Assembly (NCBI GenBank): GCA_026400835.1
Contig: JAPLOA010000034.1
Span: forward strand, 1 to 64,000
Origin: Planctomycetales bacterium
Lineage (GTDB): Bacteria > Planctomycetota > Planctomycetia > Planctomycetales > Planctomycetaceae
Direction of reading: 5' to 3'
Length of the DNA stretch: 64,000 bases
Shown here: positions 403 through 11,084 of the stretch, piece by piece
How the letters are laid out: the number at the start of each line of letters is the position of its first letter
Position numbering within the stretch: the stretch's first letter is position 1
Position numbers and translations under genes: made by a program
The notes under the pieces: generated by a model
Databases searched by the model: none
Told to the model about the DNA's origin: nothing
Seen by the model: only the letters and a program-made list of their open reading frames with translations

Positions 403-1461
403 TTACTTCAGCGCTCGCTGAACATCGCGAAGAATCTTGCGCTTCGTGGTTTCGCTAAGCGCCGGCCAGGCTTCAATCAGCCCCTGCAGATCAGAATCGA
501 AACCGATTGCCCCTGCCTGTGCCCCTGGTACTTCAGAAACTGCCGTTTGCCCCGTGTTTTCTGAATTGTTTCGAGTCCTGGCCGGGTTATTCTCTACCAC
601 TTGAAGACGCTGTGATTTCTCGTTTTCAGGGGCTTCTTCGATGTCATCCGACGTAGAAAGCGACGCAGTGCCGTCGTTTGCGGATGCCTGCTGCGTCGGA
701 TTTTGCGTCGCTTTTTCAAAGTGCGAATCCGTCACGTGGAGATAGTGCTTCTGTGCGACCTTTGGGCTGTTGCCCATCCATTTGCAGACTACGTGCGTCG
801 GAAATGTTTCCTCAAGCTCGGTCTGCCTGCTGGCTCGCATGTTCTGGAACAACTTCGGCCATGGTTTCAGGCCAGCCCTTTCGATGATCTTCATTAGGGT
901 CGTCCGAAGATTTTGGCTGTCGCTTCGATATCGAGTGATCACGAACTCGGAGTTTTCCTCCGCCGTTTCCCAAGCTTCATTGAGCAGGGTCTGAAGCTCA
1001 GGGAAGAATGGGACGACTCTTGTCTCCTTCCCCTCGTATCCTTCAGTCTTTGGAGAATGGACCACAATCCGGTCTGTATCCCACAGAATATCGGTCCACC
1101 GCAGTCGCACCATTTCGGATGGGGTTCGCAAGTGCCCAATATCGTGTAACAACGCAGCAATTCGGACGACCTTCCGCCAGTATTTCTTTTCTGCAAGCTG
1201 CTCGGCAATTCGATTGTTAACATCATCCGTCACGCGTGAATCGAAAATGCTGTCGAAGATTTTCCCAGCGAATTCCATCACTCCCATGGAATGTTCAAAG
1301 CGATTGTGTACCGCCCCGGGATAAACCTGGTAGGACATCGCCAATTGATGAATGCAGCGAAGTCGCTGGAACGGACGACTGTCAATCAATCGCTTCTCCA
1401 GGATGTCAAAATGGACGAATCCATGGATTGCATCCCGCACTTCGTGTTTCAGCTTCGCCAT
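403..1461 (-). CDS. Chimeric HD-phosphohydrolase / tyrosine-recombinase protein
   Basis: Uninterrupted 352-codon frame made from two unrelated parts. Residues 1-110 match the start of COG1078-type HD phosphohydrolases (RDAIHGFVHFDILEKRLID, QRLRCIHQL, RFEHSMGV, ALLHDIGH), including the first metal-binding His and the HD pair. The sequence then switches at residue 110-112 to the catalytic half of a tyrosine recombinase: LRTPSEMVRLRW with the box-I Arg, Lys138 in SPKTEGYEGK, RASRQTEL, and GNSPKVAQKHY with the nucleophile Tyr240. The last 100 residues are the low-complexity tail usual for planctomycete integrases. The HD domain lacks its final Asp half and the integrase lacks its DNA-binding N-terminus, so neither activity is expected intact. 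The frame starts 54 bases after hsdR, with a GGAG upstream of the ATG, so the HD gene was probably the last member of that operon. It looks like a deletion or recombination product. Confidence 0.8.
   Translation of the reverse strand: MAKLKHEVRDAIHGFVHFDILEKRLIDSRPFQRLRCIHQLAMSYQVYPGAVHNRFEHSMGVMEFAGKIFDSIFDSRVTDDVNNRIAEQLAEKKYWRKVVRIAALLHDIGHLRTPSEMVRLRWTDILWDTDRIVVHSPKTEGYEGKETRVVPFFPELQTLLNEAWETAEENSEFVITRYRSDSQNLRTTLMKIIERAGLKPWPKLFQNMRASRQTELEETFPTHVVCKWMGNSPKVAQKHYLHVTDSHFEKATQNPTQQASANDGTASLSTSDDIEEAPENEKSQRLQVVENNPARTRNNSENTGQTAVSEVPGAQAGAIGFDSDLQGLIEAWPALSETTKRKILRDVQRALK
571..593. repeat. 23-bp direct repeat, left copy
   Basis: The 23-base string starting TCGAGTCCTGG and ending GGGTTATTCT is identical at 11052-11074. 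A weaker match extends about 20 bases further left (CCCCGTGTTTT in both). In both places it encodes the NNPARTR segment of an integrase C-terminal tail. The two copies are in direct orientation and bracket the restriction operon. Confidence 0.85.
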
Positions 1462-1514: not shown

Positions 1515-4442
1515 TCAATAGTACTGCACAATGTACCCATAAGCCTTGTCGAACAATTCCTGATCCGTGTGCAGCTTGTAACGTAGCAGCGTTCGCCGGA
1601 GTTCTTTCTGAACCAGCCGCTCACCGGCAGTCGTGTGCTGCCAGTCGGGGAAGCGGACTTTCTTCACGATCTCATCGATATCGTTCACGATACGTTCCAC
1701 GATGATGTGAGTCGCCGTGGACTTGGCATCCTGGAACAACTCCGTCAGAGCTTCCTTTGCTCGGTCGCGTTCCTCTTCCGGATCGGATTCGTTCTCAGCC
1801 GCCACGACCTCTTTGGCAAGCTCCAGAATCTCTTTCAGGAACTGCAGGCTATTCAGGAAGCCCTGTTCGTGCCGTTCTTTGACCTTCTCAAGTCGTTCAC
1901 CAAGAGCCTTGAACTTCGGATTCCCTTTGTGCTTCCGCAAGCGAGCGATCAGCTTGATCTCGATCTCTCTGCCGCGTTTCTCCGGATCTTTGTCGCCCAG
2001 GATTTCCTCAAGCACCTGGGCATCCAGAACCAGCGTCTCGACGTCGTCCCGCACGGAATCCAGATGCACGTTCTGATTGATCAATTCGACCGTTTTTGCC
2101 CCCAGAGCATGCCACAGCAGCTTGCCGTTGCCACTCGGAGGCTTCACGGACTCGTAAACCTGCGTCAGCCACTTGTAGTCCTTTTCGTAAGCACTCAGGA
2201 TCGAATCTGGTGACAAGGCCTCCCAGATCGTCCCCAGCACGTTGTATTCCCCAGCGAACTTATCACGGACTTCGTTGTTCGGCAGGCACTGCTGAGCCGC
2301 CATCAGGCCCTCGTAGCCTCCCACGCTGCGATCGACGCCGGAAAAGAAGGCCAGACACTTCTGAACCTGCACCGGAAGAGCCTGTCGCAGCTCTTCAATG
2401 TTGCTGACAACCTGCTGCACGGCCTTTTCGTCAAAGTCCAAGGCCTGAGCGACATCGTCGAAGATGCCGATGTAGTCGACGATCAGGCCATGAGTCTTCT
2501 CCTGACCGAACGTGCGATTTGTCCTGCAGATGGCCTGCAGGAGATTGTGATCCTTCATCGGCTTGTCGAGATACATGACCTGCAGGATCGGTGCGTCAAA
2601 GCCCGTCAGCAGTTTGCTGGTGACAATGACGAACTTCAGCGGATCAGCCGGATTGCGGAATCGGTCCAGCAGCTTCTCTTCGGCATCTTTATCGCGGATG
2701 TGGTCTTTCCATTCCGGCGGATCGTTCTGAGCACTGCTCATCACGATGGCACTGGCATCCAGGCCGATCAGTTCATCCATCACTGCCTTGTAGAGCACAC
2801 AGCATTCGCGATCGAAGACCACGACCTGAGCCTTAAAGCCATTCGGCTCAATCTTCTGCTGGAAGTGCGTGACGATGTGATTGACTACCGCACGGACTCG
2901 TTCCGGGTTCTTCACCAGCACGGCCATCTTGGCGGCTCGCTTGGCCAGGTCATCGCGATCCTGTTCGTTCAGCCGTCCGGTGATCTGACGATAGGCTTCG
3001 TCCATCGCGGCCTTGTCGATCTTCAGCTTCACTTCAGGAGCTTCAAAGTGAAGCGGCAGCGTGGCTTTGTCGCGAATCGATTCCTGGAACGAGTAGCGGC
3101 TCATATAGCCTTTCTCGTCTTCCTCCGCACCGAAGGCCCAGAATGTGTTCTTGTCGGCTCGGTTGATCGGCGTGCCCGTCAGACCGAACAGAAACGCATT
3201 CGGCAACGCTTCCCGCATCTTGCGTCCGAGATCGCCTTCCTGAGTTCTGTGAGCTTCATCGACCAGCACAATGACGTTCGAACGTTCATTCAGCTTGCCG
3301 CCCGCTTCGCCGAACTTGTGAATCGTGGTGATCAGGACTTTGCGAACATCCTGAGCCAGCAACGTCTGCAGTTCCGTGCGAGTCGCCACGCCGACCATGT
3401 TGGGTACATCGGCAGCGTTGAACGTGGCCGTGATCTGCGTATCAAGATCAATACGATCCACAACTATGATCACTGTTGGATTGCCGAGCTTCGGATGCAG
3501 TCGCAGCTTCTGAGCCGCGAAGACCATCAGCAGCGATTTGCCGCTTCCCTGGAAATGCCAGATCAGGCCTTTCTTCGGATAACCTTTGATAACTCGATCG
3601 ATCAGCTGATTCGTCGTGAAGTACTGCTGATAGCGGCAGATGATCTTGATGCGGCGATGCTTCTTGTCGGTCGCAAAGACCGTGAAGTTCTGCAGGATGT
3701 CCAGCACAACTCCGGGCCGCAGGATGCTTTCAATCGTTCGACGCACATCGGCGATGGAACCTTCAGGATCATTCTCGCGAGTTCTCCATGGTCCCCAGAT
3801 GTCGATTGGCATGCGAATGGAGCCGTAGCGAAACAACTTGCCCTCAGTCGCGAACGAAAACACGTTCGGCACAAACATCGCCGGAACCTGTTTCTCGTAG
3901 ATCTCATGCACCTGATACGCCGCATCGAACCACGTCACTGCACTGCGAGTCGGCGTCTTGGCCTCACCGATAATCAGTGGCAGCCCGTTGACCAGGAACA
4001 CGACGTCAAACCGCTTCTCGACCGAACCGGCTCGAAAAGTCCACTGGTTCGTGACCACGTAGCGATTCTGCGACAGGTTTGAAGAATCGATCAGTCGCAC
4101 GGTCACATGTTCGCCGTTGGGACCAAACGGCATGGTCTTCTCACCCCGCAGCCAGGCCATGAAGTTTTCATTGGCCCGAACCAGCCCATCGCCCTGAACT
4201 GACAGCAGGATTGCTCGCAGAGCGTAGATAACTTCGTCCGCTCGATCAGGCTGAGCTGCAATTTCGGGATTGAGACGAATCAAAGCGTCTCGTAGCCACG
4301 CTTCGACCATCACATCGCCCGGCTGCCGAGGCACCTCGATGACCGCATGATAATCCCACTTCACCGGCGTCGAAGCCGCCTCGGCCAAATCTCCACCGAG
4401 TGATCCACCCCAACCCGGTTCCGCGTCTTCGTGCAGCACCAA
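1515..4442 (-). CDS. hsdR: Type I restriction enzyme, R subunit (HsdR)
   Basis: A 975-residue protein with the full HsdR layout. The PD-(D/E)xK nuclease core is Asp146 (RFDVVF) with Glu160-Ala-Lys162. The superfamily 2 translocase has Walker A GSGKS at 299-303, DEAH at 395-398, a TGTPINR motif III and QAICRTNRTFG for motif VI. The charged C-terminal helical domain ends in YIVQYY. HsdR cuts DNA after ATP-driven translocation as part of an R2M2S1 complex. The frame can begin at TTG 4442 or GTG 4439, overlapping the end of the upstream nucleotidyltransferase by about 80 bases. The segment before the conserved LRDALIRLNP is shorter than I expect for the family, so the 5' end may have been trimmed. 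No S subunit is encoded nearby. Confidence 0.95.
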   Translation of the reverse strand: MVLHEDAEPGWGGSLGGDLAEAASTPVKWDYHAVIEVPRQPGDVMVEAWLRDALIRLNPEIAAQPDRADEVIYALRAILLSVQGDGLVRANENFMAWLRGEKTMPFGPNGEHVTVRLIDSSNLSQNRYVVTNQWTFRAGSVEKRFDVVFLVNGLPLIIGEAKTPTRSAVTWFDAAYQVHEIYEKQVPAMFVPNVFSFATEGKLFRYGSIRMPIDIWGPWRTRENDPEGSIADVRRTIESILRPGVVLDILQNFTVFATDKKHRRIKIICRYQQYFTTNQLIDRVIKGYPKKGLIWHFQGSGKSLLMVFAAQKLRLHPKLGNPTVIIVVDRIDLDTQITATFNAADVPNMVGVATRTELQTLLAQDVRKVLITTIHKFGEAGGKLNERSNVIVLVDEAHRTQEGDLGRKMREALPNAFLFGLTGTPINRADKNTFWAFGAEEDEKGYMSRYSFQESIRDKATLPLHFEAPEVKLKIDKAAMDEAYRQITGRLNEQDRDDLAKRAAKMAVLVKNPERVRAVVNHIVTHFQQKIEPNGFKAQVVVFDRECCVLYKAVMDELIGLDASAIVMSSAQNDPPEWKDHIRDKDAEEKLLDRFRNPADPLKFVIVTSKLLTGFDAPILQVMYLDKPMKDHNLLQAICRTNRTFGQEKTHGLIVDYIGIFDDVAQALDFDEKAVQQVVSNIEELRQALPVQVQKCLAFFSGVDRSVGGYEGLMAAQQCLPNNEVRDKFAGEYNVLGTIWEALSPDSILSAYEKDYKWLTQVYESVKPPSGNGKLLWHALGAKTVELINQNVHLDSVRDDVETLVLDAQVLEEILGDKDPEKRGREIEIKLIARLRKHKGNPKFKALGERLEKVKERHEQGFLNSLQFLKEILELAKEVVAAENESDPEEERDRAKEALTELFQDAKSTATHIIVERIVNDIDEIVKKVRFPDWQHTTAGERLVQKELRRTLLRYKLHTDQELFDKAYGYIVQYY

Positions 4443-5287
4443 AGGCTTGCTAGCGCCCTTGAAGCCAGTAAGCCGTTTGCACAGGTGTGCAGGGCTTGTT
4501 CCAAGTCTTCGTCACTGCTCAACAATGCTCGCAGGCCAGATCCGGCGTTCGCCGCAATCGCTTTCCATTCCAGCGGAAAGCACGCTGCAAGAGCCGCCTG
4601 CCAAGCATCGGCCCATGGGCTGTAATCATTCAAGTCCGCCAGAATCGTAATCGCAAGAACTCGTCCGAGGTCTTTGTTGCTGCGTTTGATCGCACGCTCT
4701 GCAAACAGGGAACTCATCAAGTCCGGTTTGATGATCGGATGCTCCAGGAGGTTTGCGAGAACCATGTTCACGGGCTGAGCATAACGAATTCCAAGATCAG
4801 CCACTGGAAGCGGTTGATGAGCGATGACGGAAAGAAAGCGGAATGTGGGTAATCCAAAATGTCCCTGAGGCAATTCCAGTCGGGTCCATTCTTTCCCCTT
4901 CACCTCGCTGGATTTGGGTACCGTGAGAAGTTCGAGAAACCACGCCTCGGCGGCAGTCTGTTCGACTCCCGGAGGATACAGCCTAACGACTGGAAGTTTG
5001 TCGACCGGAGTTTCCGCCGTTCCTGGTGAGGTCGCAGCCTCTCCGGCTTGCTGGGACCAGCCTGCTTCTAAGAGTTGAGCCGCAAGGTTTTGGCCGGTGC
5101 CTACAGCCGCGTGAAACGGTTCCAGCACACAGTCAATGTCCTTCGTGCGAACGGCTTTGCTGGAGTCCTTGCCAAAGAAGTGGAATCCGGCGGCAAGGCT
5201 GCCAATGATGACAATATTGGGATGACAGTCCTGTGGAACGGCCTCGGCCACGGCTTTCAGGACCTGGAATGGTGAGAGTTTGCTCAT
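4361..5287 (-). CDS. AbiEii-like nucleotidyltransferase, putative toxin
   Basis: A 308-residue protein with a minimal nucleotidyltransferase signature: Gly29-Ser30 (IVIIGSLAAGFHF) followed by Asp50-x-Asp52 (RTKDIDCVL). This is the pattern of the AbiEii/DUF1814-type proteins that act as toxins in type IV toxin-antitoxin pairs. Its ATG overlaps the stop of the winged-helix gene upstream by four bases, the tight coupling usual for such pairs. The last roughly 27 residues are read from DNA that also encodes the start of hsdR in another frame and are rich in Arg and Trp; they do not look like a native C-terminus, so the gene may have been fused to hsdR by a recombination event. Substrate and toxicity are unknown. 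Confidence 0.7.
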   Translation of the reverse strand: MSKLSPFQVLKAVAEAVPQDCHPNIVIIGSLAAGFHFFGKDSSKAVRTKDIDCVLEPFHAAVGTGQNLAAQLLEAGWSQQAGEAATSPGTAETPVDKLPVVRLYPPGVEQTAAEAWFLELLTVPKSSEVKGKEWTRLELPQGHFGLPTFRFLSVIAHQPLPVADLGIRYAQPVNMVLANLLEHPIIKPDLMSSLFAERAIKRSNKDLGRVLAITILADLNDYSPWADAWQAALAACFPLEWKAIAANAGSGLRALLSSDEDLEQALHTCANGLLASRALASLWCCTKTRNRVGVDHSVEIWPRRLRRR

Positions 5288-6342
5288 ACTTTTGTCCGCT
5301 GTTTCAAGAATGCCAAGAACTCCATGGCCTGCGATTCCATGCGTGATTCGTGAAGATCAAGCAGGCATTCGACTTCATCCGCCCACGACAACCCTACGTC
5401 GCTAGAGGTGAAGAACATTTCCTTGCGGAAGAGCACATGGACGGCTACCTGTGGAAGCTCCCGGCGAGGGACCGGCTTGAGGCCCGGATCCAGCTTTCGA
5501 ATGATCGCGGGGACGTTCTTTTGCATTCGAGCATCCACAATGAGATCCAAGCGAGGATTCCCGATCAGATCAAATGCCGGACAGTAATGTCGTGTCCCGA
5601 AGGTTCCCCCGACAGCAACGCCGGGCGGACGCAGATCACGCAGCTTGTCCATAAGCAACTCAGTGGGCCGTGAGTGACCATTGGCGACAGCAAAGCCCTG
5701 AGTTGAACGTACATCTCCACTTCGAGCCAACAGCTTGAACCATTCTTCCTGAGGGAACGACCGCAGCGAAACGCTGCGATCTGAAAAACGAAAAAGCCAT
5801 GGTTGCAGTTGGACCAGTGCCTCGGCAATTGAAGGATAACTGAATCCCGTTTGCTCGCCGAGTTCTTTGAGCTTCGTTGGGCAGGCCTTACGAAACCAAT
5901 GAATCAGGAGAACACGCAGTACGTCGGTAATCGCATCAGATGTTCGTCCTGAGGGCCGAGTTGAGCGATTGGATGCATGCTCAACCACGTACTGAAAATG
6001 CTTCTTTGCTGCAGCGGGGACGTCGCCCAACGTTGATTGCAACTCGTGCTCTTTGCTAACTATGACCGATAGACGTTCAAGGATTTCGGGTTTCAGAATG
6101 GATTTCAGCCCATCCCATTCCGTTTGAAGCTTGGCTTGGCTGATCGCGGGATCCTGAAGAATCAGCACGACGTGGCGAACATCTTTCCCAACTGCACATC
6201 GAGCAATCTCAAGACAGGCAGCTCGCAATCGCCGGACGTCCCTTGGTTCTCGAAGGACAAGAAAGAAGATATCTCCGAGCATCGCGTCAAAGCGGATGCC
6301 GGGGACATTCGTAAGGGCAATTTCGAAGAGAAAATCACTCAT
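5284..6342 (-). CDS. AbiEi-like winged-helix protein, putative antitoxin/regulator
   Basis: A 352-residue protein from ATG 6342 (MSDFLFEIALTNVPG). A TTG five codons upstream is possible, but the ATG is preferred because the upstream DNA carries operator-like palindromes. Residues 1-120 form an alpha/beta N-terminal domain I cannot name. A winged helix follows at about 137-180 (DVLRVLLIHWFRK, LGEQTGFSYPSIAEALVQL). The C-terminal region (GTFGTRHYCPAFDLIGNPRL, then ADEVECLLDLHESRMESQAM) has the order seen in AbiEi family antitoxins, which bind DNA and repress their own operon. It is coupled to the nucleotidyltransferase by a four-base overlap. Its position between hsdM and hsdR is where hsdS would be expected; nothing in it resembles a target-recognition domain. 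Confidence 0.65.
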   Translation of the reverse strand: MSDFLFEIALTNVPGIRFDAMLGDIFFLVLREPRDVRRLRAACLEIARCAVGKDVRHVVLILQDPAISQAKLQTEWDGLKSILKPEILERLSVIVSKEHELQSTLGDVPAAAKKHFQYVVEHASNRSTRPSGRTSDAITDVLRVLLIHWFRKACPTKLKELGEQTGFSYPSIAEALVQLQPWLFRFSDRSVSLRSFPQEEWFKLLARSGDVRSTQGFAVANGHSRPTELLMDKLRDLRPPGVAVGGTFGTRHYCPAFDLIGNPRLDLIVDARMQKNVPAIIRKLDPGLKPVPRRELPQVAVHVLFRKEMFFTSSDVGLSWADEVECLLDLHESRMESQAMEFLAFLKQRTKV

Positions 6343-6348
6343 GAAACA

Positions 6349-6398
6349 AAGATGCAACTTTAATTTTAAAGTTGCAACTTAATTCGAAGTTGCAACTT
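6349..6398 (-). promoter_or_regulatory. Array of three AAGTTGCAACTT palindromes (operator-like)
   Basis: Just upstream of the winged-helix gene, the perfect 12-base palindrome AAGTTGCAACTT occurs at 6369-6380 and 6387-6398. A one-mismatch copy lies at 6349-6360. The start-to-start spacings are 20 and 18 bases, so all sites lie on roughly the same face of the helix. The array begins six bases from the ATG at 6342. This is what an autoregulatory operator of an AbiEi-type repressor would look like. The binding protein is inferred, not shown. Confidence 0.6.
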
Positions 6399-6415
6399 TC
6401 GTTTTCAGGAAATAT

Positions 6416-6514
6416 TCAGGAATACTTGGGCAAATGAGCAATCCTCAATGCGAGATCCAGTTGAAAGCGGGCGGTCTCGGGAGATTCGTGATGCAGCTCA
6501 CTTCGGGTCGACAT
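6416..6514 (-). CDS. Short ORF between hsdM and the AbiE-like pair
   Basis: A 32-codon frame starts at ATG 6514, 51 bases after the hsdM stop, and reads MSTRSELHHESPETARFQL and so on to a TGA at 6416. It is too short for a motif match, but its composition is protein-like. It could be a leader peptide, a small protein, or a leftover from a deleted gene. The DNA between hsdM (ends 6565) and the operator array holds nothing else I recognise. Confidence 0.25.
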   Translation of the reverse strand: MSTRSELHHESPETARFQLDLALRIAHLPKYS

Positions 6515-6564
6515 AGGGGGTAACTTCGGGGGTTCTGACCACAATTGGCTATTGGTGGCTTAGC

Positions 6565-8061
6565 TCATTGGGAAGCTCCATCAAGGAGCTTGCTTAGAGC
6601 CGTGCGGACATCGGCAGAACTCTTCAACCATGCCGTGAGTGCTTCAGGAAGTGCTGTCGCCTGAGCAGCCGCATTGTCATCGCTAGTCTGTGTCGTTTCG
6701 GCGGAAACGTACAACGGAATGCTGAGGTTGCCGTCTTTCTCCAGGATCGCTTTGTTCGTCACGACCTTTGCAAAGCCGTCCACATCCTTGAACTTTTCGT
6801 AAGCCTTCACGATGCGTTCGATGTGGTCGTCTGTCAGGAAGCTTTGAGCCCGTTCGCGAGTCACTTCGCCGACCGCATTGATCAACAGAACCTTGTTCTT
6901 GCGAGCTTTGGGTTTACCCGTTCGGCAAACGACGACGCAGGCTTCCATCGGCGAGTTGTAGAACAGATTCGGTCCCAGGCCGAGCACGCATTCGATGACA
7001 TCGGCTTCGATCATTTTGCGACGCATCTCGGCTTCTTCCTGCCGAAACAGAACACCATGCGGAAACAGAATCGCACAGCGTCCGTTCTTCGGCGTCAGAC
7101 TGCACTGGATGTGCTGCCAGAATGCATAGTCGGCTCGGCCCTGCGGCGGCGTGCCGTAAAGATTCCGGCCCCAGGGATCAGCAGCGAATGCATCGCGATC
7201 CCACTGCTTGATCGAATACGGCGGATTTGCCAGCACCACATCGAATTGCTGCAGTTGATCTCCCGCGACAAGCTTTGGTTCAGCCAGAGTGTCACCGCGT
7301 TCGATTCGAAAATCTTCGATCCCATGCAGAAAGCAGTTCATGCGAGCGATCGAAGATGTCATCAGGTTCCGCTCCTGACCGAACAGCTTCACATTCCTCC
7401 ATTCCTTTTTCTGCTTGCGCAAATGCGTCACACAAGACAGCAGCATTCCACCTGAACCACAGGTCGGATCGTAAACCGATTCACCCGGCTGCACGTCCAG
7501 CATTTCCGTCATCAGATGTACGACAGTTCGGTTTGTGTAGAACTCCGCTGCAGTGTGTCCGGAATCGTCAGCAAACTTCTTGATCAGATACTCGTATCCC
7601 TGCCCCAGTTCATCTTCCGGCAGATTGGCAACGGTCAACTCCAGCGTTGAGAAATGCTCGACCAGGTCTCTCAACATAGCATCTGAAAGTCGGTCCTTGT
7701 TCGTCCACTGAGCGTCACCGAAGATTCCGTACAGCTTGTCCGGATTGGCCGTTTCAATCGAACGCATTGCCGACTGCAGCGCTGCCCCAACGTTCTTTGC
7801 GGCTTCCCGAACATTGTTCCAGTGCGCCGCTTCTGGAATCTGAAACCGGTGATTCTCCGGATAAGCCGCGAACTCTTCATCGCCGCCAGATTCCGTCAGA
7901 GCCGTGGCTGTTTCCTCATCGAAAACATCGCACAGACGCTTGAAGAACAACAGCGGAAAAATGAACTGCTTGTAGTCGCCCGCATCAATCGTCCCACGCA
8001 GCAGGACGGCTGCGCCCCAGAGGTAAGATTCGAGCTGTTGTTGAGTGATGCGTTGTGTCAT
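6565..8061 (-). CDS. hsdM: Type I DNA methyltransferase, M subunit (second copy)
   Basis: A 498-residue N6-adenine methyltransferase subunit. Residues 8-140 form the HsdM N-terminal helical domain (LESYLWGAAVLLRG, FPLLFFKRLCDVFDEE). The SAM-binding motif I is DPTCGSGG at 198-205 and the catalytic motif IV is NPPY at 279-282. The usual EFYTPR before motif I is EFYTNR here. The gene overlaps the upstream hsdM copy by four bases, so the two are probably co-translated. Type I systems normally use two identical M chains with one S chain; here two diverged M chains are encoded and no S. The C-terminus, which normally contacts S, is present. Confidence 0.93.
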   Translation of the reverse strand: MTQRITQQQLESYLWGAAVLLRGTIDAGDYKQFIFPLLFFKRLCDVFDEETATALTESGGDEEFAAYPENHRFQIPEAAHWNNVREAAKNVGAALQSAMRSIETANPDKLYGIFGDAQWTNKDRLSDAMLRDLVEHFSTLELTVANLPEDELGQGYEYLIKKFADDSGHTAAEFYTNRTVVHLMTEMLDVQPGESVYDPTCGSGGMLLSCVTHLRKQKKEWRNVKLFGQERNLMTSSIARMNCFLHGIEDFRIERGDTLAEPKLVAGDQLQQFDVVLANPPYSIKQWDRDAFAADPWGRNLYGTPPQGRADYAFWQHIQCSLTPKNGRCAILFPHGVLFRQEEAEMRRKMIEADVIECVLGLGPNLFYNSPMEACVVVCRTGKPKARKNKVLLINAVGEVTRERAQSFLTDDHIERIVKAYEKFKDVDGFAKVVTNKAILEKDGNLSIPLYVSAETTQTSDDNAAAQATALPEALTAWLKSSADVRTALSKLLDGASQ

Positions 8062-9692
8062 TGAAGCAGCCCTTCTCGCTTCAGGATCTGAATCAACCGA
8101 TCCTCTGCCTCAAATGCTGCCGCCGCACTTTCTTTCAGACGGTCCATCGCTTCGTCCACAGTCAAAACTTCCTGCTCGACCATTGGTTCAACATACCGCG
8201 GAATGTTCAAGTTGTTGTCATTCGCTGCGATGTCCTCCAGCGTCACGACCCGTGCGACGCCATCGACATCTTTGTAGTCGCGATACCAATGATAAATGCG
8301 GTCGACATGTTCCGGCAGAAGTTCGTTCTGGGCTCGTCCCGTCTTGAACTCCTTCGAAGCATCCAGAATGAGCACCTTCTTCTTTCGGTCTTTGGCCTTA
8401 CGCTGTCGGAAGACCAGGATGCAAGCCGCGAGGCCCGTGCCATAGAACAGATTTGGTCCGAGCCCGATCACGGCATCGAGCAGATCCATGCCGAGAATCT
8501 TCTCACGGATCTCGCCTTCTTTGCCCATGCGGAACAAGGCCCCGTGAGGCAACACGACGGCCATGCGTCCAGTCTTCGCAGCCATCGATTTGATCATGTG
8601 CTGGACCCAGGCATAGTCGCCGCTCTTTCCTGGCGGCATTCCTGCAAAGTTGCGGCCCCACGGATCGCTGGTCCAGACTTCGTCGCCCCATTTCTCCAGC
8701 GAGAAGGGGGGATTGGCAATCACGCAGTCGAACGTCGCCAGATCATCTCCTGAGAAGAACGCGGGACTGCGAAGCGTGTCACCTCGCACGACCTGAAAGT
8801 CAGATGCTCCGTGCAGGAACAGATTCATGCGAGCAATGGCCGACGTCGTCAGGTTCTTTTCCTGAGCGAACAGTTTGCCCCAGAGAGTGCGGTCGTCGCC
8901 ATGGTTCTCTTTCACGTGCTGAATCGCTTCCAGCAGCATGCCCCCAGTCCCGCAGGCCGGATCGTAGATCGATTCGCCCTCCTTTGGATCAAGAATATTG
9001 ACCATCAACTGGACAACGGAACGCGGGGTATAGAACTCACCGGCCTTCTTGTTGGTCGCGTCGGCGAACTTCTTGATCAAGTATTCATAGGACTGCCCCA
9101 GAATGTCATCCTGAGCCGCCTGATTTCCGAGATTGATCTTCGAGAAGTGTTCGATCAAATCCCGGAGCAACTTGTCCGGCAAACGCTCTTTGTTCGTCCA
9201 GGCTGCATCGCCGAAGATTCCATACAGCGTCTCCGGGTTGGCTTTCTCAATGCCTCGCATCGCTTTCTGCAATGCCTGACCGACATTAGTGGCAACTTTG
9301 CGGACGTCTTCCCAGTGGCAATCCTCGGGAATCTGAAAGCGATAGTTCTGCGGAAACAGAGCGTACTCTTCGTCGCCGTCTGATTCACTCAGTGCGGCTT
9401 GATACTCCTCATCATGGACGTCTGAGATTCGCTTGAAGAACAGCAATGGAAACACGTAAGTCTTGAAATCCGCAGCATCCACCGGCCCTCGCAGAATATT
9501 GGCCGCCTCCCAGAGGTGCGATTCCAGCGACGAGAGCGTGATTGATGCTTCGGAGATCTTCTGGCCATCTGTCGTTGATGGAAACTCCAACTGCTGCTGC
9601 TGCGTGCCACTTCTCTGGCGATTATCGCTGCTGGAGGAAGCTGATTTTGCAGATCGCTTTTTGGCCATTATCCCTACTTTTTTCACTGCCAT
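8058..9692 (-). CDS. hsdM: Type I DNA methyltransferase, M subunit (first copy)
   Basis: A 544-residue HsdM. It opens with a roughly 50-residue Lys/Ser/Gln-rich extension absent from the second copy. The N-terminal helical domain follows (LESHLWEAANILRG, FPLLFFKRISDVHDEE). Motif I is DPACGTGG at 244-251 and motif IV is NPPF at 327-330. EFYTPR is intact. It is clearly homologous to the downstream hsdM but diverged along its length, so the pair is not a recent duplication. It is the first gene of the minus-strand operon. An in-frame ATG at 9668 (MAKKRSAKS) is an alternative start. It would methylate adenine only when guided by an S subunit, which this operon does not supply. Confidence 0.93.
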   Translation of the reverse strand: MAVKKVGIMAKKRSAKSASSSSDNRQRSGTQQQQLEFPSTTDGQKISEASITLSSLESHLWEAANILRGPVDAADFKTYVFPLLFFKRISDVHDEEYQAALSESDGDEEYALFPQNYRFQIPEDCHWEDVRKVATNVGQALQKAMRGIEKANPETLYGIFGDAAWTNKERLPDKLLRDLIEHFSKINLGNQAAQDDILGQSYEYLIKKFADATNKKAGEFYTPRSVVQLMVNILDPKEGESIYDPACGTGGMLLEAIQHVKENHGDDRTLWGKLFAQEKNLTTSAIARMNLFLHGASDFQVVRGDTLRSPAFFSGDDLATFDCVIANPPFSLEKWGDEVWTSDPWGRNFAGMPPGKSGDYAWVQHMIKSMAAKTGRMAVVLPHGALFRMGKEGEIREKILGMDLLDAVIGLGPNLFYGTGLAACILVFRQRKAKDRKKKVLILDASKEFKTGRAQNELLPEHVDRIYHWYRDYKDVDGVARVVTLEDIAANDNNLNIPRYVEPMVEQEVLTVDEAMDRLKESAAAAFEAEDRLIQILKREGLLQ

Positions 9693-10865: not shown

Positions 10866-11084
10866 TTATAGCGATTCCTCCAAATCGCCCAAGGCAATCA
10901 GTGACTGCCGAACCTCTGGGGACAACTCTTCGCACGCCAGAATGAATTGCCGAATGTCCGACCACTTCGGACTGTTCCGGAATCCCTTTACGTCGGATTC
11001 TGCGTCGCCTTTCTCGAAACATGCTGTATTCCCCGTGTTTTTCGCACTCCTTCGAGTCCTGGCCGGGTTATTCTGTTGATGCAA
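10866..11084 (-). pseudogene. Integrase C-terminal tail remnant
   Basis: A 72-codon open frame matches the tail of the integrase half at 403-1461: both contain NNPARTR, followed by a stretch ending in a helix (SDIRQFILACEELSPEVRQS here, SDLQGLIEAWPALSETTKR there). A GCGACGCA-AATCCGACG motif shared with the other copy is also present but in a shifted frame and different order. The catalytic domain is absent upstream, so this is a remnant of a second tyrosine recombinase or of one split by rearrangement. Confidence 0.6.
11052..11074. repeat. 23-bp direct repeat, right copy
   Basis: Identical to 571-593 and in the same orientation, inside the integrase-tail remnant. The two copies are about 10.5 kb apart. 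Confidence 0.85.

Follow-up and report, generated by a model that had tools for sequence, protein, structure and literature searches.

The 64,000-nucleotide stretch analysed here (the window; contig JAPLOA010000034.1 of the Planctomycetales bacterium assembly GCA_026400835.1, our G000, with window base 1 being the first base of the contig) carries a type I restriction-modification (RM) island of five minus-strand genes in the order hsdM1, hsdM2, WH (winged helix), NT (nucleotidyltransferase) and hsdR, from which the specificity gene hsdS is absent (Table 1). Comparison with related sequences indicates that this island is probably a remnant of an M1-M2-S-R operon of the PacII type carrying a WH-NT guest, most simply explained by one deletion. 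Rather than a novel type of enzyme, it resembles a known system in decay, with a little-known module as its guest.

Probable loss of hsdS at the NT-hsdR junction

The nearest relative of the island is locus L035 (contig C41, by coordinates, of genome G127 from the same genus), with M2 and M1 97 and 91% identical to those of the window and the order M1-M2-DUF4062-SLFN-hsdS-start of hsdR. DNA homology between the two runs through M2, ends 9 bases past its stop and resumes at window position 4462, which corresponds to codon 21 of the L035 hsdR. Homology to the NT family ends at codon 276 (window 4460), beyond which the aligned NT relatives continue for 26-39 residues and the window has 32 residues in another hsdR frame. 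The broken ends of NT and hsdR meet with zero unassigned bases between them and share a few bases only; within the 153.6-kb contig, this junction is 4.4 kb from the nearer end. The ancestral state would have been an m6A/m4C (N6-methyladenine/N4-methylcytosine) type I operon with an AbiE/MenAT-like WH-NT pair between M2 and S, from which one deletion, the simplest course, would have removed the end of NT, the entire hsdS and some 20 codons from the start of hsdR; without S, the enzyme would neither methylate nor restrict.

The occurrence of hsdS in the same order in L035 points to a simple local loss, even though that gene (L035:12568-13776) is itself interrupted at around codon 79 by an in-frame stop, which, if not due to an assembly error in G127, represents a second, independent lesion. 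The M1M2 system is found only in G000 and G127 among 18 genomes of the genus (G000 included).

A previous reading of the DNA letters alone (hereafter, the sequence-only reading) had described five head-to-tail genes with three four-base overlaps and no hsdS frame, and both descriptions hold. The overlaps are those of M1/M2, WH/NT and NT/hsdR, the last being of four bases only if hsdR starts at GTG 4364 and of 82 bases with TTG 4442; between M2 and WH there is a 207-base gap. The domain scan returned no Methylase_S match anywhere in the island, and in the whole genome PF01420 matches are confined to contig C68. WH probably starts at ATG 6342, because the alternative TTG 6357 falls within a repeat of the putative operator.

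Table 1. Features of the island in window coordinates (aa, amino acids; ORF, open reading frame)
Feature	Position	Strand	Description
hsdM1	8058..9692	-	544 aa, m6A-type M1; HsdM_N + N6_Mtase; AGEF at 217, NPPF at 327; top PDB match 7vru_A
hsdM2	6565..8061	-	498 aa, m4C-type M2; HsdM_N + N6_Mtase; AAEF at 171, NPPY at 279; top PDB match 7vru_B
M2-WH spacer	6358..6564	-	L035 DNA homology stops 9 bases past the M2 stop; remainder to the operator without clear L035 match
Triple operator (putative)	6349..6398	-	three AAGTTGCAACTT copies: two exact (6387-6398, 6369-6380) and one with a single mismatch (6349-6360); spaced with periods of 18 and 20
WH gene	5284..6342	-	352 aa from ATG 6342; ORF open to TTG 6357
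NT gene	4361..5287	-	family sequence in residues 1-276; residues 277-308 are hsdR sequence read out of frame, in place of the lost native C-terminus
NT-hsdR junction	4456..4466	-	NT codon ~276 abuts hsdR codon ~21; hsdS missing
hsdR	1515..4364	-	949 aa from GTG 4364; TIGR00348, REase_I; GEAK 133, GSGKS 273, DEAH 369; without the first ~20 codons of L035

The S subunit in related m6A/m4C type I operons

Both M chains carry the motif pairs of the M1M2S class: AGEF with NPPF in M1 and AAEF with NPPY in M2, which PMC9613975 assigns to the m6A and m4C subunits, respectively, of non-canonical type I enzymes; the M1 and M2 of PacII act together with one S. The best PDB matches of M1 and M2 are the two M chains of the PacII M1M2S complex, and hsdR carries the nuclease and motor motifs expected of this class. 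Two diverged M chains are the normal m6A/m4C design and, therefore, no novel explanation of them is required. Compared with PacII, the window shares the M1 and M2 motifs, the best structural matches and HsdR, and differs in having no hsdS and in an hsdR without the start seen in L035. Since HsdS is missing from the island, the window represents a remnant and not a working M1M2S member as it stands. The plain M-M-S-R order is found on annotated plasmids of Streptomyces hirsutus and Exiguobacterium aurantiacum.

Of the 394 relatives confirmed in the scan with M2, the 80 best were retained and, together with four loci of the same family (L128-L131) and the window, gave 85 loci; L132 (G098, where the contig is cut), L116 (the G127 hsdR contig) and HsdR matches of 33-37% identity were left out of the tally. 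M2 and hsdR are both present in 59 of the 85 loci and S accompanies them in 58, as a separate gene in 44 and fused to M2 in 14, the window being the sole S-less locus among the 59. Therefore, the proposal of the sequence-only reading that the S subunit was lost is borne out by L035 and by the retention of S elsewhere. S was not detected in 11 of the 85 loci; the ten besides the window are also without hsdR, in most cases owing to a contig end shortly after M2, and two of them (L047 and L112) lack both genes despite 9.0 and 5.8 kb of sequence to the right. L035 falls outside the 59 because the longer hsdR of G127, to which that of the window is 94% identical, sits on another contig (C18). The 5' part of the G127 hsdR is present twice, on two contigs (including L116:1-500), beside a stretch that, by eye, resembles a repeat element.

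Operons that appeared to be naturally S-less, with M2 followed by hsdR (L053, L068, L072 and others), were rejected as such when they turned out to encode M2::S fusions. This fusion is present in 17 of the 85 loci (including L053, L068, L071-L073, L079-L082, L087-L089 and L091), the complete fusions measuring 876-957 aa, in records with bacterial and archaeal titles.

The WH-NT pair as a guest of the M2-S slot

Three cargo slots are occupied in these M1-M2-S-R operons (L035 to L114): M1-M2 in 33 of 79, M2-S in 45 of 58 (window counted) and S-R in 25 of 58, all approximate counts, as one cluster holds mis-tagged S and M fragments and some loci seem to be near-duplicates (L058/L059, L090/L130 and L108/L109). 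WH-NT was found in four of the 85 loci, namely the window, L050, L078 and L083. In L050 and L078 the order is M2-WH-NT-S, with a full-length S after NT, and in L083 WH-NT is followed by a 132-aa S ORF, with M2 split over two ORFs and no hsdR in the stretch. WH-NT beside S in these operons (the short S ORF in the case of L083) therefore identifies the pair as a guest of the M2-S slot and not as a substitute for S. Thus, of the earlier idea that S had been replaced by an addiction module, the loss of S beside WH-NT stands and the replacement does not, the pair lying upstream of S in L050, L078 and L083.

Other M2-S guests recognised by Pfam are DUF4062, SLFN/AlbA_2, HNH, HipA, HTH-M78, AAA and DUF6088, and several guests are without match. 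AbiEii itself is detected by Pfam in this slot at L039, behind a protein clustering with the DUF6088 protein of L038, and at L103; therefore, true AbiEii genes and WH-NT occupy the same slot. The M2-S slot repeatedly takes nucleotidyltransferase genes of the toxin-antitoxin (TA) type, and m6A/m4C type I operons can be regarded as carriers with three cargo slots. The puzzling S-less operon of the window becomes an identifiable loss event. Separately, 24 loci encode proteins that cluster with an SLFN/AlbA_2 member, and such proteins are found in all three slots. A possible SLFN remnant in the M2-WH spacer of the window amounts to a 17-base match (E 0.028) and is not claimed.

Folds and families of WH and NT

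WH and NT both fall below every Pfam and NCBIfam cut-off. Their relatives were aligned (10 NT sequences in A1 and 13 WH sequences in A2, leaving out fused, broken and partial copies), and at E up to 0.1 none of the 10 NT members matches AbiEii (PF08843) and none of the 13 WH members matches AbiEi-type or DUF6088 models. With hhalign, the WH profile gives no alignment with an AbiEi-type profile; the C-terminal part of WH gives no profile alignment with NT, and NT has one chance-level match only among PDB profiles. In one NT member, the Pfam scan picks up DUF6036 (E 0.044), a family of nucleotidyltransferases whose function is unknown. Among the models of the PADLOC candidate PDC-M21, the B model (PDC-M21B) is weakly matched by four of the 10 NT members (best E 0.0036) and none of the 13 WH members has a match.

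The predicted structure of NT (pLDDT 86, predicted TM-score (pTM) 0.86) has a nucleotidyltransferase fold nearest to MenT/AbiEii. That of WH (mean pLDDT 83, pTM 0.60) comprises an N-terminal alpha/beta domain, a winged helix and a C-terminal nucleotidyltransferase (NTase)-like domain, and its PDB profile matches are MarR-type winged helices (best E 1.6e-4) plus weaker ones. No AbiEi structure stood out among the fold matches of WH, most of the VIA rows spanning only residues 132-216.

Set against the AbiE/MenAT systems (PMC7725324), the window pair is alike in having a regulator followed by an NTase, a four-base overlap, upstream repeats and a predicted MenT-like fold; true AbiEii genes also share its operon slot. 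In contrast, it has no Pfam AbiEi/AbiEii match, the profiles do not align, and its regulator carries a further domain at the N-terminus and an NTase-like one at the C-terminus. The RptR system is similarly a TA module within a type I RM operon with three repeats at its promoter. However, RptR, of 9 kDa, represses the island as a whole and its repeats are of 9 bp around a 6-bp palindrome, whereas the 12-bp palindromes of the window stand directly before the guest pair. The literature considered, PMC12255303 included, concerned defence genes embedded in other systems, type I systems with two M chains, and AbiE. By analogy with AbiE/MenAT, NT may be a growth-arresting nucleotidyltransferase restrained through WH, and the pair would be regulated independently of the RM genes.

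The putative triple operator

No further AAGTTGCAACTT copy occurs in the 64 kb at up to one mismatch (chance expectation 0.12), and L078 and L006 (genome G013) have the same operator layout in near-identical sequence. Upstream regions of WH genes (180 bases before to 20 after the start) were scored for triple palindromes at a spacing of 17-21 bp against 300 shuffles, setting the start of the window and L006 genes at the ATG closest to the repeats and leaving out five of the 19 WH places without a usable start (L025, L026, L031, L033 and L034). The score exceeded all 300 shuffles in 10 of 14 regions; in the other four, the shuffles at or above the real score numbered 1 (L032), 4 (L029), 11 (L024) and 27 (L022). 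Considering 477 ORF upstream regions of 15 loci, WH genes included, nine scored 38 or more, comprising six WH starts, two instances of the same repeats read from the opposite strand and one GC-rich tandem repeat. The repeats are present and concentrated at WH starts.

The repeat sequence varies among distant WH members and the layout is kept, which would be expected if WH binds the repeats. WH may repress its own promoter via the triple operator. A more ambitious reading, which we consider doubtful, is that WH-NT is an undescribed nucleotidyltransferase effector module guarding m6A/m4C operons from the M2-S slot, with a three-domain regulator (a nuclease-like remnant, a winged helix and an NTase-like domain) reading iterated palindromes, recruited like true AbiE pairs and here outliving the neighbouring recognition gene. 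WH-NT with its triple operator is a module open to testing, and neither Pfam nor NCBIfam has a name for it; no literature search was directed at it, and we do not claim its absence from print.

Distribution of WH-NT

WH matches were obtained in three of 170 genomes of the order and, among 392 genomes sampled from the phylum, in 13; both counts include the genome of the window. At 15 other WH places in Planctomycetota, some on short contigs, no M1- or M2-like ORF is present in the stretches read, and a weak HsdR match occurs at two of them (20 and 25% identity); the neighbours at four scanned places are ordinary or familyless genes (lactate racemase, TPR, DUF6528 and LRR). In G013 (L006), the surroundings are unrelated and the DNA between the operator and NT codon ~271 is homologous (73% identity); therefore, the operator-WH-NT block moves. 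In the same locus (L006:5955-10511), NT makes up the N-terminal portion of an ORF of 1518 aa, whose C-terminal region is TCAD9/APH-like, with TCAD9 just below its cut-off. WH was not found in plasmids, nor in the genome_contigs set by a single-sequence scan, nor in viral contigs by a one-pattern scan. Such scans overlook distant relatives, as L050, L078 and L083 show, which belong to genome_contigs and were found via the M2 scan and missed by the WH scan.

State of the operon and alternative explanations

The ratios of nonsynonymous to synonymous substitution (dN/dS) are 0.066 for M1, 0.031 for M2 and 0.056 for hsdR against the same-genus copies, and 0.118 for WH and 0.082 for NT against G013 (dS 1.7-2.0). 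Purifying selection until recently implies that the loss of S is young or that the parts are still of some use. The genome has two PF01420 matches, both in one gene of contig C68, within a system (L008, G000:C68:270000-289500) composed of a 964-aa HsdM with NPPF, a 432-aa HsdS and an HsdR of at least 963 aa; its hsdM is 35-40% identical to M1/M2 and its hsdR 29% identical to that of the window. The HsdS of C68 is 36-38% identical over 266-300 aa to those of L066, L067 and L074, within-class S identity having a median of 36% (local matches above 150 aa), and only 21-27% identical to the other listed S. A single M1M2-class S used as query (L131) retrieved nothing significant from the genome (best E 0.22). 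An orphan hsdS, which the sequence-only reading had suggested searching for, was rejected: another hsdS does exist on C68, but it adjoins its own hsdM and hsdR.

Several observations weigh against a remnant left by a single deletion from an operon with an AbiE/MenAT-like guest. M1, M2 and hsdR show no decay, with long open frames and intact motifs, and the C68 HsdS reaches the identities given above with three S of the class. The pre-deletion state of the window's own WH-NT was not found in any genome compared, and WH is present only in G000 among the 18 genomes of the genus. L083, one of the three other operons with WH-NT, is itself broken. The Foldseek TM-scores of NT against TglT are low (0.29-0.34), and hhalign gives the NT and AbiEii profiles a probability of 0.9% and does not join them.

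The main rival to one deletion is insertion with replacement, in which the recombination that brought in WH-NT also replaced hsdS and left NT truncated from the outset, without a later deletion. The mobility of the G013 block and the different cargo in the M2-S slot of the same-genus L035 would agree with it; nevertheless, L050 and L078 hold WH-NT in the same slot with S kept, and the breaks of NT and hsdR coincide without unassigned bases, so that we regard it as unlikely. A misjoin of the assembly at the NT-hsdR junction might be suspected from the position of the window at a contig start and from the G127 copy being split over two contigs, but the few bases shared at the junction and its distance from the contig end make such an artefact very improbable.

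Somewhat less improbable than a misjoin, though still a weak contender, is that M1, M2 and R borrow the HsdS of C68 in trans, which would account for their intact state and accords with its identity to the S of L066, L067 and L074, at about class level. However, that S adjoins its own hsdM and a distant hsdR, resembles the other listed class S poorly and was not retrieved by the single class query. Finally, the sequence-only reading had envisaged that M1, M2 and WH form a complex able to recognise DNA without S and to trigger NT upon failure of modification. Its sole support is that the genes are open, on the same strand and undecayed. In contrast, M1M2 pairs normally work through S (PMC9613975) and 58 of the 59 operons keep it, WH co-occurs with S in M1M2 operons and has its own putative operator, and at its 15 other places in Planctomycetota, some on short contigs, it is without M1/M2-like ORFs in the stretches read; we therefore find this proposal unsupported and scarcely credible. 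The deletion of hsdS from an operon with a WH-NT guest remains our preferred explanation.

Flanks of the island

At window 403-1461, on the minus strand, a 352-aa ORF encodes an HD domain (residues ~1-110) that continues in frame into the catalytic half of a tyrosine recombinase, which looks like another deletion scar adjoining the island. A 59-bp stretch of 83% identity flanks the island at window 536-593 and about 11016-11074, the left copy inside the recombinase part of this ORF and the right copy near an ORF ending in a similar peptide.
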